From Synechocystis sp. PCC 7509 (GTDB lineage: Bacteria; Cyanobacteriota; Cyanobacteriia; Cyanobacteriales; Chroococcidiopsidaceae): a DNA stretch of 64,000 nucleotides. The notes under the pieces are model-generated. The model ran no database searches and was not told the origin of the DNA. It saw only the letters and a list, made by a program, of their open reading frames with translations. Positions 52,841-59,280 of the stretch are shown piece by piece; within the stretch, counting starts at the first letter, position 1, and each line of letters opens with the position of its first letter. The translations under genes and the position numbers were made by a program. Location of the stretch: assembly GCF_000332075.2 (NCBI RefSeq), contig NZ_ALVU02000001.1, positions 2,802,324 to 2,866,323 of the forward strand, given 5' to 3'.

Positions 52841-53470
52841 TTAAATAGCGGAAAATTCCGGTTGCATTGCTTGGATAAATACTTCTACCGATTGCGAACC
52901 ACTGATGCTAACTTTGTTGTTGATGACAAAAAATGGCACGCTGCTGATACCTCGATTTCTTGCGGCTTCTGCTGCTGTCATTACTTCAGCTAATGCCGCA
53001 TCGCCGCTTAATTGCTGCTTTAGCTTGCTTTCGTCAAAGCCAAAATCTTTACCTATACGCGCTAAAACGTTAACATCGCCAATATTTAGCCCATCTTCAA
53101 AGTAAGCTTTATAAACGGCTTCAACAATGACGTTTTTATGGGTTTTTGGTGTCAGCGCAATTAGCTGATGAGAAAGCGTTGTATTGACAGCCAAAAGAAC
53201 TTTGTCAAAATCTAGCTTGACTCCAGCTTTTGCCCCCGATTGGGTTGCATAGTTAAATAGCTGCGTCAATTGATTTGCACCTATACCTTTTCGCAGCTTC
53301 ATAAAGGAGCGAAACCCTACACCTTGAGCCGGAATTGTGTCATCTAAAAGAAAAGGATGCCAACGTATATCTATTGTCTCGTGTTCTATAAGCGCGATCG
53401 CATCAAACAGTTGTTTTTTGCCAATCCGACACCAAGGACAAGCCGTATCGTGAAAAATGTCAATTAACAT
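52841..53470 (-). CDS. DsbA/FrnE family thiol oxidoreductase
   Basis: This is a thioredoxin-like fold with helical insert: FHDTACPWCRIGKKQLFDAI gives the CPWC active site at residues 11-14, and the cis-Pro loop is GISSVPFFVINNKVSISGSQ near residue 180. There is no signal peptide, so it is cytoplasmic as in FrnE/2-hydroxychromene isomerase-like members. Its homologue is part of the Nostoc punctiforme scytonemin operon. Here it is inserted between eboC and eboD (5 and 3 bp gaps), so it is co-transcribed with ebo genes. Confidence 0.85.
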   Translation of the reverse strand: MLIDIFHDTACPWCRIGKKQLFDAIALIEHETIDIRWHPFLLDDTIPAQGVGFRSFMKLRKGIGANQLTQLFNYATQSGAKAGVKLDFDKVLLAVNTTLSHQLIALTPKTHKNVIVEAVYKAYFEDGLNIGDVNVLARIGKDFGFDESKLKQQLSGDAALAEVMTAAEAARNRGISSVPFFVINNKVSISGSQSVEVFIQAMQPEFSAI

Positions 53471-55296: not shown

Positions 55297-55995
55297 TTAT
55301 GGTTTTGATTTTATAAGTTCTACTAATTGCCAAAGTTCCGGCGATACCGTGCGATTAGCTGCCAATCGTTCGTTGGCGTAGTCGGTTAACATTTGACCAA
55401 GGGTTGGATTAGCGCGAAGTTCTAAGCCTTGAATATCTCGCAAAGGACTACCTACAAACAGCGCTTTGAGTACCATTTGATTCCACGCCAATTCGTCAAA
55501 ATAATCTTGCGGGTAAGGATTGTATAATGCGATCGCATTAAATACGGGAATCATATTACTACGCACCCCTTCAGTTGCCCGAAATCGGTACTGTTCGGGG
55601 TATGGTAAAAGCGGCAAAGCTTGATAAAGGGCGACCAATTCCCCCATATCTGCGGTGGTAAAAAGCTGCTCCAAAACTTTTAAATATTCTGCCGCGTCAT
55701 TGTGAGGTAGCGCTAATAATAGTAAAATTCGCGCCGCTCCGTCGCTAGTCCAAAATTGCGGATGCCAATGCGATCGCACTTTTTGGGCTGATTGTAATTG
55801 CTCCATTGTTAGCGATAACTTTTCTTTGCCTACATAGCGAGGTACAGCGCTAAAAGCTGTGAAAAATACCCGCAATGCTGCACCATCAACAATTGGTTGG
55901 CATTTACTATCTAGCCAAGCCAAACCTTGAGTAGTGGTATGCTGGGCAACCCAGTCACGAAGTAAATTGCTAGTGGTAGCGATCGCAGTTTTCAT
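55297..55995 (-). CDS. eboA: EboA-like protein
   Basis: The 232-residue soluble alpha-helical protein matches EboA by length, position and motifs such as AALRVFFTAFSAVPRYVGKE, DGAARILLLLALPH and YNPYPQDYFDELAWNQMVLK. EboA has no known biochemical activity; the ebo set is linked to scytonemin monomer export and, in other bacteria, to polyprenyl metabolite traffic. It is first of the ebo genes, after a strong hairpin that separates it from the PEP-CTERM genes. Confidence 0.85.
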   Translation of the reverse strand: MKTAIATTSNLLRDWVAQHTTTQGLAWLDSKCQPIVDGAALRVFFTAFSAVPRYVGKEKLSLTMEQLQSAQKVRSHWHPQFWTSDGAARILLLLALPHNDAAEYLKVLEQLFTTADMGELVALYQALPLLPYPEQYRFRATEGVRSNMIPVFNAIALYNPYPQDYFDELAWNQMVLKALFVGSPLRDIQGLELRANPTLGQMLTDYANERLAANRTVSPELWQLVELIKSKP

Positions 55996-56046: not shown

Positions 56047-56080
56047 AAACACTAATTTTTATCAGTAAAAATTAGTGTTT
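56047..56080. terminator. Perfect 14-bp hairpin before eboA
   Basis: AAACACTAATTTTT and AAAAATTAGTGTTT pair perfectly over 14 bp around a 6-nt loop (ATCAGT). On the minus strand the right arm ends GTGTTTTAA, as in a terminator. It separates the PEP-CTERM repeat gene (stop at 56102) from eboA (start at 55995). It may end the scy/PEP transcript or only attenuate it. Confidence 0.7.
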
Positions 56081-56101: not shown

Positions 56102-57142
56102 TTAGTTATTCAACTTAAGCTTTTCTTTTGCCTTAAACTTCTTCGCCCATAGAAAATAAACTAATCCCAACCCAAGAAGCGATAGCGCCGAAGATGGTTC
56201 GGGAACGGGTTTTGTCGGTACAGAACCACCGCTATCAGGACAGGCTATAAAGCACCTAGGATCGCCCTTGGGAAAGTCACCAGAAATCCCATTTAAGGAA
56301 GCAAAAAATTGTGACAAATCGCTTTCAGAAAAAGATTCTAGCGTCGAGCCATTACCTTGAGAAAGGATAAGTTGCTCCAAAGTTTTGCTTTGGGCGGCAT
56401 CAAAATCAGTAGTAAAGCCAGTGAATTCTTTGCCAAATTCGCCCATTATCGAACCAACTAGACTATCAACATCTGACTTCAACTCTGGAAACAGTGTTTT
56501 TAAGGTGTCAATATTTTGACTTGCGGTAGATTTACCATCTAAAAACCAGTTGCCATTACCAATAATTACGTTGTTATCAGTAAATAACCAATTGCCATTA
56601 CCAATAATTACGTTATTTTTACCAAAATTCCAATTACCATTGCCAATGGTTGAATTATCTTTGCCAAAACTCCAATTACCATTACCAAGAGTGGAATTTT
56701 TGCTACTAGAGTTCCAATACCAGTTGCCATTACCAATAGTTGAATTATAGCTTGCCTCATCTCGAAGCCAATTCCCATTACCAATAGTACCGTTGTAACT
56801 TGCTGAATCTATATTCCAATTACCATTACCAATAACGGCATTGTTACTACTCAAGTTCCAATTTCCATTACCAATAGTGGCATTGTTGCTGCCCAAGTCT
56901 TGGTTTGCCCCAAAAGGATTTTCACCATTAGTAAAGGGGTTTTCACCATTAGCAAAAAGGTTATAAATATCGCCGTTAGCAAAAGGATTTTCACCATCAG
57001 CAAAAAACTTAGAAATATCACCATCAGTCAAAGGACTGCCACCACCAGCAAAGGGATTACTACTACCCCCACCATTGCTGTAAGGATTGTTATTACCATT
57101 GCCAACAAAAAAGTTACTAATGCTAGATTCATTAGTTGCCAT
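56102..57142 (-). CDS. PEP-CTERM protein with eight NxxIGNGNW repeats
   Basis: I do not recognise a family. The 346 residues divide into an N-terminal Gly/Asn-rich module (1-80; NPFANGDIYNLFANGENPF), a repeat block (86-203; eight N-x-x-[IL]-G-N-G-N-W units of 14 or 16 residues), a helical part (210-285) and a C-terminal sorting signal (VPEPSSAL, one membrane helix from about 318, then KKFKAKEK). The first 30 residues are polar, so no Sec signal peptide is visible, although PEP-CTERM proteins normally have one. A good AGGAGG precedes the ATG. Alternating repeats suggest a beta-solenoid or fibre. It lies between scyF and eboA, so a sheath or pigment-binding role is plausible but unproven. Confidence 0.85.
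   Translation of the reverse strand: MATNESSISNFFVGNGNNNPYSNGGGSSNPFAGGGSPLTDGDISKFFADGENPFANGDIYNLFANGENPFTNGENPFGANQDLGSNNATIGNGNWNLSSNNAVIGNGNWNIDSASYNGTIGNGNWLRDEASYNSTIGNGNWYWNSSSKNSTLGNGNWSFGKDNSTIGNGNWNFGKNNVIIGNGNWLFTDNNVIIGNGNWFLDGKSTASQNIDTLKTLFPELKSDVDSLVGSIMGEFGKEFTGFTTDFDAAQSKTLEQLILSQGNGSTLESFSESDLSQFFASLNGISGDFPKGDPRCFIACPDSGGSVPTKPVPEPSSALSLLGLGLVYFLWAKKFKAKEKLKLNN
56534..56887 (-). repeat. Eight-copy NxxIGNGNW-coding repeat
   Basis: Codons 86-203 contain eight units. Copies 1 and 5-8 are 14 residues long and copies 2-4 are 16. The GNGNW core is invariant in all eight. Even-length periods are what a stacked beta-strand arch would give. DNA copies differ at third positions, so the repeat is kept at protein level. 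Confidence 0.9.
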
Positions 57143-57186
57143 AAGTAAGAGTCCTCCTATTTGCCAATTATGTTATCGAACAAATC

Positions 57187-57247
57187 AAGATTAAAAAGAC
57201 AAATTATTTATGTCTTTGGATACATTTATTATTTGTCTTTTAATCTT
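57187..57247. terminator. Long hairpin between the two PEP-CTERM genes
   Basis: AAGATTAAAAAGACAAAT (57187-57204) pairs with ATTTGTCTTTTAATCTT (57231-57247) with one bulged base; the loop is 26 nt. It lies just after the stop of the 57258-57833 gene and before the ATG of the next. It should stop or dampen read-through on the minus strand. Confidence 0.6.
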
Positions 57248-57257
57248 TTAGTTGCGT

Positions 57258-57833
57258 TTATTTATTAAAGACTCTTGCCGTCCGTCGTTGATGTTGCTTG
57301 AATTTAGTTGCAGCAATTCCTAAACCAATTACTGCTAAACCTAGTACAGAAGAAGGTTCGGGAACTGGGGTACTTGAGCCATTAGTAGGAAATCCTTGGG
57401 GGCTGTTACCACCAGCAAAAATAGGTATGTTATTGCTAGAAAATTCTGCTGGATTTACGCCGCCACCAAAAATCTCCCAAAAGCTGTCATCATTAGCAAA
57501 AGGATTGACTGGAGTACCATTACTACCACTAGGAATTCCACCGCCAGCAGGAGCGTTACCTGTAGTGTTAGAAGGGTTAACACCGCCAGCAAACAAGTTC
57601 CAGAAATTGTCACCCGCAAAAGGATTACCACCGTAGGGCGAATTTCCACCAAAACCAGCGCCACCAGCAAAAGGATTACTACCACCGGGCGCACCAAGAT
57701 TACCAAAAATATCCCCTACTGTAACCTTACTACCATCAGCTTTTTCGATATCTAACAATGGGCCAAAGGGTGATTGCCGTAGGAGTTCATTTAAGTCTTG
57801 AGTATTGCTACCTGTAGTCGTGTTATCAGCCAT
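57258..57833 (-). CDS. Small Gly/Asn-rich PEP-CTERM protein
   Basis: No family is recognised. The 191 residues carry an internal duplication: NPFAGDNFWNLFAGGVNP (70-87) and NPFANDDSFWEIFGGGVNP (110-128). The same NPFA pattern is seen in the neighbour at 56102-57142. The tail VPEPSSVLGLAVIGLGIAAT plus KFKQHQRR is a typical PEP-CTERM sorting signal for exosortase. The N-terminus (ADNTTTGSNTQDLNELLRQ) is polar with no signal peptide. A strong AGGAG site precedes the ATG. It follows scyF, so it may be exported with ScyD-F. Confidence 0.82.
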   Translation of the reverse strand: MADNTTTGSNTQDLNELLRQSPFGPLLDIEKADGSKVTVGDIFGNLGAPGGSNPFAGGAGFGGNSPYGGNPFAGDNFWNLFAGGVNPSNTTGNAPAGGGIPSGSNGTPVNPFANDDSFWEIFGGGVNPAEFSSNNIPIFAGGNSPQGFPTNGSSTPVPEPSSVLGLAVIGLGIAATKFKQHQRRTARVFNK

Positions 57834-58078: not shown

Positions 58079-59242
58079 TTAAGCTTTTACTGCTTTTTGC
58101 TTTTGACGTTGCTTTAATTTGCCCATTAATGCACCACCACCTAAAACAGCTAAACCTAACATCGAAGTAGGTTCAGGTACGGGTTCAGTTCTATTGACGT
58201 TTAATACTTGAACGCGACCTTGGAAGAAATCGCCTACATAAAGCTTGTCATCTACTAGGTCTGAACCTGCCGTCCAATTAAACTTCCCTGGTTCGAGGTC
58301 TAGGGGATCGCCATAGGGAGAGGGTGCGCCCAACGCTAAAGGTGGTACGACATTTCCTTCTGCATCACGGGCAGGTTCGCCAAAGGCACTCAGAAAGTTA
58401 CCACTTTTATCGAATATTTGGACGCGGCTATTGATAGAATCCGTCACGTAGATGTTGCCTTCCTCGTCTACTTCAGCATCAATCGGCTGATTGAACTCTC
58501 CGTCTCCAGTGCCTTGTTTGCCAAAAGTTAGCAGCGCCTTGCCTTCTTGATCGATCACTTGAATGCGGTTGTTGAACTGGTCAGTTACGACTAAATTTCC
58601 ATCAGGCGTGATTCCTACGCCTGATGGTCCTTGAAATTGTCCTGGCGCAGTGCCGTTGCTACCAATAGAACCAGTTACTTCGCCACTTGATGAATTAAAT
58701 TTCAAGATGCGATCGCTACTATAATCACCCACGAATCCATTGCCGTTATTATCAAATACAATCCCCGATGGGCCGTAGAAAGGTCTGCCTTCAACTAATC
58801 CGCTAAATTGACCTTGAGCAATGGATTTGAGATAGTTACCTTGGGGATCGAATATATTAATGCGGTTGTTGACAACATCACCCGCATAGAAATTTCCAGT
58901 ATTCGGTTCAAAGGCGATCGCTGATTGCCCGTCAAATTGCCCAGGCCCGCTACCCTTACCGCCAAAGGCTTGAAGAAAATTACCCTCAGAATTGAACACC
59001 TGGATTTGATCGGTTACGTCATTAGCCACGAAGACGTTTCCTGTTCCTTCCTGTACCGCAATGCCTTGGGGGATGGCAATCGTACCTGGAGTAAACGGAT
59101 TTTCTCCGGCGGCGAAGTTAGCTGGTCTACCGATGGAACTATCGTAAGATAAACTTATTGATGCTGCTTGAGCTTGGGTTGTAACTAAAAACATTAGTCC
59201 CGAACTTACGATCGCAAATGAGAGATTTTTTACTAATTCCAT
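58079..59242 (-). CDS. scyF: ScyF-like NHL-repeat protein, PEP-CTERM
   Basis: A signal peptide (KNLSFAIVSSGLMFLVTTQA) is followed by about six NHL beta-propeller repeats (GSGPGQFDGQSAIAFEPNTG, GTAPGQFQGPSGVGITPDGN, GTGDGEFNQPIDAEVDEEGN). The tail VPEPTSMLGLAVLGGGALMG plus KLKQRQKQK is a PEP-CTERM signal. ATG at 59242 is chosen because AGGAG lies 9 bases before it; TTG at 59251 is too close to that site. ScyF is a predicted periplasmic protein of the scytonemin cluster with no assigned reaction. Confidence 0.9.
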   Translation of the reverse strand: MELVKNLSFAIVSSGLMFLVTTQAQAASISLSYDSSIGRPANFAAGENPFTPGTIAIPQGIAVQEGTGNVFVANDVTDQIQVFNSEGNFLQAFGGKGSGPGQFDGQSAIAFEPNTGNFYAGDVVNNRINIFDPQGNYLKSIAQGQFSGLVEGRPFYGPSGIVFDNNGNGFVGDYSSDRILKFNSSSGEVTGSIGSNGTAPGQFQGPSGVGITPDGNLVVTDQFNNRIQVIDQEGKALLTFGKQGTGDGEFNQPIDAEVDEEGNIYVTDSINSRVQIFDKSGNFLSAFGEPARDAEGNVVPPLALGAPSPYGDPLDLEPGKFNWTAGSDLVDDKLYVGDFFQGRVQVLNVNRTEPVPEPTSMLGLAVLGGGALMGKLKQRQKQKAVKA

Positions 59243-59280
59243 GATTTTCAACTCCTATTTGTGTATGGTTTATGCGGACT

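Follow-up and report, generated by a model that had tools for sequence, protein, structure and literature searches.

The open reading frame at 56102-57142 of the 64,000-nucleotide stretch of DNA analysed here (the window) lies on the minus strand, begins with ATG and encodes a 346-residue protein, P0001, whose repeat domain is predicted to be a beta-roll. The fold is of an established type, and the family has no model. The association of this family with the scytonemin genes is well supported. The explanation we consider best, to which we give a probability of roughly 40%, is that the protein plays an accessory structural part in the scytonemin system, as a beta-roll with an aromatic ladder that would contact the pigment.

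The repeat gene and its neighbours

Eight strict matches to N-x-x-[ILV]-G-N-G-N-W were found in P0001, starting at residues 87, 101, 117, 133, 149, 163, 177 and 191 and thus separated by 14, 16, 16, 16, 14, 14 and 14 residues. None of 10,000 shuffles of its residues contained more than one strict motif. Motif scan, spacing and shuffles therefore agree with the first-pass annotation, which had described eight N-x-x-[IL]-G-N-G-N-W units of 14 or 16 residues between an NPFA-rich head and a PEP-CTERM tail. The two flanking parts were recovered as well: the head contains four NPF motifs (residues 29, 52, 68 and 75), two of them NPFA, and the tail at residues 312-334 matched Pfam PF07589 with 21.7 bits against a cut-off of 20.7, while NCBIfam TIGR02595 stayed just below its own (15.5 against 16). 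The best hydrophobic 10-mer in the last 45 residues scored 2.39, and a basic end is visible in the sequence. No paralogue was found in the host genome except a chance match at E 0.5, and the search for plasmid-borne relatives gave no match. The features of the gene and its surroundings are as follows.

58079-59251, minus strand: scyF, upstream neighbour (NF035926, 537.8 bits)
57258-57833, minus strand: partner gene P0002, 191 aa, NPFA-rich with a PEP-CTERM tail, no hydrophobic N-terminus
56102-57142, minus strand: GNGNW-repeat protein gene P0001, 346 aa (ORF, motif scan)
56906-57142, minus strand: head, residues 1-79, rich in NPF and without a hydrophobic signal-peptide core; most pLDDT values below 50
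56531-56884, minus strand: eight 14/16-residue coils, residues 87-204, predicted beta-roll
56348-56530, minus strand: C-terminal stretch common to subfamily I, residues 205-265, low-confidence helices
56240-56254, minus strand: CFxxC, residues 297-301, conserved throughout the five Aliterella-type members collected
56141-56209, minus strand: PEP-CTERM sorting tail, residues 312-334 (PF07589)
55297-55995, minus strand: eboA, downstream neighbour (NF035937, 367.3 bits)

The genes run scyB-C-D-E-F-[NPFA gene]-[repeat gene]-eboA and share the minus strand. scyC, scyF and eboA scored above their NCBIfam cut-offs, and scyD and scyE above that of the ScyD/ScyE family; scyB reached 584 against a cut-off of 600 and lacked the first 38 profile positions, probably because the gene extends beyond the window end. 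The placement between scyF and eboA given earlier is thus correct as to position, with the addition that P0002 intervenes between scyF and the repeat gene. The tail of P0002 scored above the TIGR02595 cut-off, and Pfam gave no match to this protein apart from the tail. By a strict rule, an NPFA-type partner adjoins the repeat gene in 28 of 62 places, some of which are the same gene fetched twice; several Nostoc-type loci unlinked to scy genes are included, indicating that the repeat/NPFA pair tends to travel together. The common motifs of the partner proteins resemble (L)RQSPFGxLxD(I)...DIFGN and NPFAGDNFW(N/D)IFAGG, and motifs of the partner type were also seen in the heads or C-termini of repeat proteins. 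The CFxxC just before the PEP-CTERM tail occurs in the five Aliterella-type members and in none of the other members among 57 family proteins. A gene at 52841-53470 of the same cluster appears DsbA/FrnE-like. Two AU-rich hairpins in the gaps on either side of the repeat gene, one toward eboA (56047-56080, z -3.9) and one toward the NPFA gene (57181-57254, z -3.5), are possible mRNA processing or stability elements.

The family and its association with scytonemin genes

After removal of duplicates, the collected loci yielded 57 distinct family proteins; contig ends cut off the N-terminus in two of them and the C-terminus in one. Subfamily I ([ILVF]GN[GA]N[WF]) comprises 33 of them and subfamily II, with another residue preceding GNGNW, the remaining 24. 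Among the named genomes scanned, nine relatives were found, six in isolates (Chlorogloea, Aliterella atlantica, Plectonema, Hassallia, Iningainema and Microseira) and three in MAGs (Aliterella, Spirirestis and a cyanobacterium). Core-to-core distances across the family were mostly 14 (251 cases) and 16 (54), those of 7 (62) being looser half-coil matches, and the register 14/16/16/16/14/14/14 was identical in the Aliterella-type, Spirirestis, Plectonema and Hassallia members. In three of four Aliterella-type genome pairs the repeats gave dN/dS values of 0.087, 0.159 and 0.115, and dS was saturated in the remaining pair; the head gave 0.06-0.20 and the C-terminal stretch and tail 0.30-0.49 in those three. 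The repeats are under purifying selection. A chance low-complexity repeat was ruled out by the exact spacing shared across genera together with the repeat dN/dS of 0.09-0.16.

Besides the tail, no Pfam or NCBIfam family matched P0001 above cut-off, and no mention of the repeat protein was found in the scytonemin/ebo literature searched, mainly open-access papers, which upholds the view that it belongs to no recognised family. The cluster descriptions in the accessible parts of PMC2726228, PMC4870267, PMC6282210, PMC12188702, PMC5133447 and PMC7997468 list scy (scyA-F), ebo and aromatic amino acid genes, and a P0001-like protein goes unmentioned there; literature matches to the text 'GNGNW' were unrelated, judged by title. 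NpR1259 of N. punctiforme, the last cluster gene of unknown role, is credited in the accessible scytonemin/ebo literature with two putative transmembrane domains and is therefore probably different from the repeat protein.

In the order sample (388 genomes), 42 genomes carried the repeat gene at E<=1e-8 and 52 carried scyC, with 40 having both, two the repeat only, 12 scyC only and 334 neither (Fisher p 3e-41, kinship of genomes ignored). Three of the 12 scyC-only genomes (G492, G558 and G565) turned out to contain a genuine member within their scy or trp locus, and in a fourth (G005) the repeat gene is a tail fragment at a contig edge, so that eight scyC genomes remain without it after recheck. 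The two repeat-only genomes are a 65%-complete MAG with ebo genes on the contig and a genome with a truncated copy (G433), two congeners of which have scyC and intact repeat copies. Likewise, a protein search at E<=0.001 in the genomes of 100 relatives found 13 repeat carriers and 12 scyC genomes, 12 being shared, although one of the shared genomes (G005) holds the tail fragment only; the thirteenth carrier is the 65%-complete MAG mentioned above, with ebo genes on its contig. In the class sample (388 genomes), eight carriers, counted as matches at E<1e-10 without stops, and ten scyC genomes were found, seven of them shared. Before filtering, 30 of 388 had matched at E<=0.001. Of these, 22 weaker matches (E 1e-3 to 1e-7) were dropped; GN[GA]NW is absent from every frame of the sequence retrieved for them, and four are YadA-type repeats. 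These four, YadA-head-like with NTAVGMQNRA-like units, come from scyC-negative cyanobacteria with small genomes of 2.5-2.7 Mb (L061, L064, L068 and L069) and are matched weakly by the family profile.

The genes are also close to one another. The best repeat match lies within 40 kb of scyC in 24 of the 40 order-sample genomes with both, against 0.5 expected from random placement; among the other 16, it is far away on the scyC contig in six and on other contigs in ten. Within the supercluster, the repeat gene was found between scyF and ebo, between scyF and trpE, downstream of trp/aroG, between divergent trpE and scyA, and downstream of eboF. A Nostoc-like genus (g63, 53 genomes) gave a different picture: 33 genomes carry the repeat gene and 46 carry scyC (45 above cut-off), with 32 having both, 14 scyC only, one the repeat only (a genome with 7% contamination) and six neither (Fisher p 0.009, kinship ignored). 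Repeat gene and scyC lie within 40 kb on one contig in just one (G718) of the 32 genomes with both, many of these assemblies being fragmented, so the repeat module can sit away from scy genes. The expectation that homologues would lie near scy/ebo genes more often than by chance thus meets with a mixed result, being borne out in the order sample and not clearly so in this genus. Since the genus is mostly unlinked and 14 of its 46 scyC genomes lack the repeat gene, the module is not essential for having scy genes.

Two large subfamily II members (L149 and L154; 1205 and 1070 aa) lie upstream of scyA and contain long Gly/Ser/Met-rich stretches, and scyE-matching frames of 1126 and 1109 aa are found near their genes. 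At L045:9341-13071, also upstream of scyA, five small proteins, mostly Gly/Ser-rich and starting MAEN, MAEE or MAES, are encoded in tandem; the first has GNGNW repeats, and the run looks like local gene multiplication. In three scyC-positive genomes (G628, G576 and G200; loci L167, L168 and L169), few or rearranged scy genes surround scyC on the fetched stretch, and a search of these genomes did not find the repeat gene.

Predicted fold and possible tryptophan ladder

An AlphaFold2 run on the core with ten sequences produced an eight-coil beta-solenoid with a block pLDDT of 78-89 over the first 120 residues, one three-residue strand per coil and low-confidence helices after the repeat. One of the five models was good (mean 70.4), the other four reaching 46.6-55.7, and in the full-length run the repeat scored about 60-77 and most of the head and tail below 50. 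Foldseek gave no match at E<=0.001; its ranking placed trimeric-adhesin heads at ranks 1, 3 and 8 and the ryegrass protein at rank 34. The top VIA-align match was ryegrass 3ult (Z 17.1, rmsd 1.1 A, 113 of 114 residues aligned, 26% identity), followed mostly by trimeric-adhesin (YadA-type) heads at Z 12-15, a range that touches the values under about 13 at which repeats may share only a common arrangement. Hexapeptide-repeat enzymes and curli CsgA (VIA-align Z about 10) were read as general solenoid likeness and set aside. Of the two forms suggested in the first-pass annotation, the beta-solenoid is accordingly what the model predicts, as a single chain matching 3ult; an amyloid-like fibre is the more speculative of the two.

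Sequence comparison points weakly in the same direction. Both subfamily II proteins searched reached 3ult, at E 0.065 and 0.88, and two of six family proteins matched Pfam PF21300 'Grass antifreeze beta roll' below cut-off (E 0.0014 and 0.0084; 19.1 and 16.6 bits against 30), these being two of three from subfamily II and none of three from subfamily I. P0001 itself had no PF21300 match at E<=1; against the PDB by sequence it gave weak matches alone (best E 0.43), and the family profile gave none at E<=10. The ryegrass protein, Lolium perenne LpAFP/LpIRI (3ult, PF21300 LbR_Ice_bind), resembles P0001 in being a beta-roll of 14-15-residue coils with N-x-V-x-G half-coils, although three of the P0001 coils have 16 residues; unlike P0001, it is a plant protein without a Trp ladder, NPF head, PEP-CTERM tail or scy link. 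The Pfam name LbR hints at a left-handed roll. The accessible text of PMC5744647 describes the grass ice-binding protein as right-handed. YadA-type heads of trimeric autotransporters (1p9h, 3wp8, 3pr7, 3s6l) share the 14-residue parallel coils, but their repeats are of the NTAVG type against the GNGNW core of P0001, which matched neither the YadA_head nor the anchor Pfam families at E<=1 and has no signal peptide. ScyD, ScyE and ScyF, encoded in the same cluster, carry the same kind of PEP-CTERM tail; in contrast to the predicted beta-roll, they are beta-propellers (NHL/SGL-type) with hydrophobic N-termini, which P0001 lacks.

The orientation of the tryptophans was considered on 204 distinct 14-mers of subfamily I and 177 of subfamily II; the pattern used to collect them already fixes G at position 5 and N at position 8. 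Trp fills position 9 in 155 of the former and 90 of the latter, and its replacements are mainly Arg, Thr, Ser and Asn. Among 328 instances with Trp at position 9, 293 have Phe, Leu, Tyr or Trp at position 11. When a subfamily II protein is aligned to 3ult, Trp falls on an X position of NXVXG, which is solvent-exposed in the grass protein according to the available part of PMC5744647; this speaks for a row of aromatic residues facing outward. The subfamily I coils often have Asp (37 of 204), Asn, Tyr or His at position 10, positions 4 and 11 avoid charge, and an inward-facing Trp would fit the position 10 Asp together with uncharged positions 4 and 11. A Trp/Phe ladder is possibly exposed on the outside of the beta-roll.

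The closest solved structure being an ice-binding protein, and the repeat gene lying mostly apart from scy in the Nostoc-like genus, the protein might give general protection against desiccation or ice as in grasses and follow scy merely because terrestrial, drought-hardy strains have both. We consider this very unlikely: a common habitat would not lead one to expect that 24 of 40 genomes have the gene linked to scyC, with several positions represented, and the outward Thr/Ser/Val of the grass protein, as given in the accessible text of PMC5744647, are largely Trp/Phe here if the 3ult register holds.

Export and possible role

Judged by hydropathy alone, the best hydrophobic 10-mer in the first 45 residues of P0001 scores 0.49, against 2.3-3.2 for ScyD/E/F. 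When ORFs were cut to the first M[AESDTK], the start shared among relatives, no Sec-like N-terminus was seen in the 55 proteins (of 57) that are complete at this end (maximum 1.83 against 2.3-3.2). The longest-ORF test, run as well, found a hydrophobic stretch in two of 57 (L117 and L143), which is probably untranslated, since it precedes the start codon that their relatives share. A missed signal peptide in P0001 was rejected, the open frame reaching only about 10 codons upstream. A PEP-CTERM-like tail was present in 19 of 57 proteins, all among the 33 of subfamily I, and absent from 38, one of them C-terminally cut; the single subfamily II match came from a contig-cut protein (L120) and was spurious. 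The host genome has two PF09721 matches above cut-off, which represent exosortase genes. Of the features of a PEP-CTERM/exosortase substrate, P0001 thus has the tail and the genomic exosortase and lacks the N-terminal Sec signal, which complicates a simple story of secretion to the sheath. Export would have to proceed with a tail and without a Sec signal.

The missing Sec-like N-terminus and the 38 tailless members would suit a protein that stays inside the cell, either gathering the trp/aro/ScyA-C enzymes or keeping the monomer, which dissolves poorly, in a protein-rich droplet, as would the position of many members directly after trp/aroG genes or beside scyA and the low model confidence of the NPF/Gly-rich head of P0001. 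We regard such a cytoplasmic scaffold as unlikely, considering that the tail of the 19 other members has no evident cytoplasmic use and that the partner P0002 also bears one.

The same 19 tails speak for an organiser of sheath polysaccharide, whose ladder would stack on exopolysaccharide sugars and build the matrix in which scytonemin lodges, with no pigment contact. PEP-CTERM proteins are linked to cell-surface exopolysaccharide in the accessible part of PMC12188702, and, according to a published abstract, an exosortase mutant of N. punctiforme loses both biofilm and scytonemin. This role seems to us somewhat unlikely: the carriers track scyC closely, which would be unexpected of a general matrix function, and subfamily II has no tail, yet is the one beside scyA. 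WspA, which the available text of PMC12157317 describes as a protein of the pigment-bearing Nostoc sheath, a beta-galactosidase limited to some Nostoc, may be a functional parallel to P0001.

In the preferred explanation, in which the protein supports the scytonemin system structurally, the eight repeats would form a rigid beta-roll rod, which the flexible NPF-rich head and, in this lineage, the exosortase-type tail could place beyond the inner membrane or within the matrix. Trp and the aromatic residue two positions later would probably share the outer edge of one sheet, giving a regular aromatic ladder, and this ladder may stack on the planar aromatic pigment (scytonemin or its monomer) and help to hold, order or pass it on. 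We infer the outside position of the ladder, the export and the pigment contact. How scytonemin moves from the periplasm to the matrix is an unanswered question in the accessible text of the review PMC7997468. A more specific form, in which a beta-roll of the ice-binding-protein type uses an outer Trp/Phe ladder to order stacked scytonemin toward or in the sheath and, together with the NPFA partner, is the missing piece that places the sunscreen, appears doubtful.

The two-gene module, tied to scyC across many genera, is a direct knockout target, and its simple repeat domain lends itself to purification and to assays of pigment binding. If the pigment is bound, the repeat would offer a designable aromatic-ladder material.
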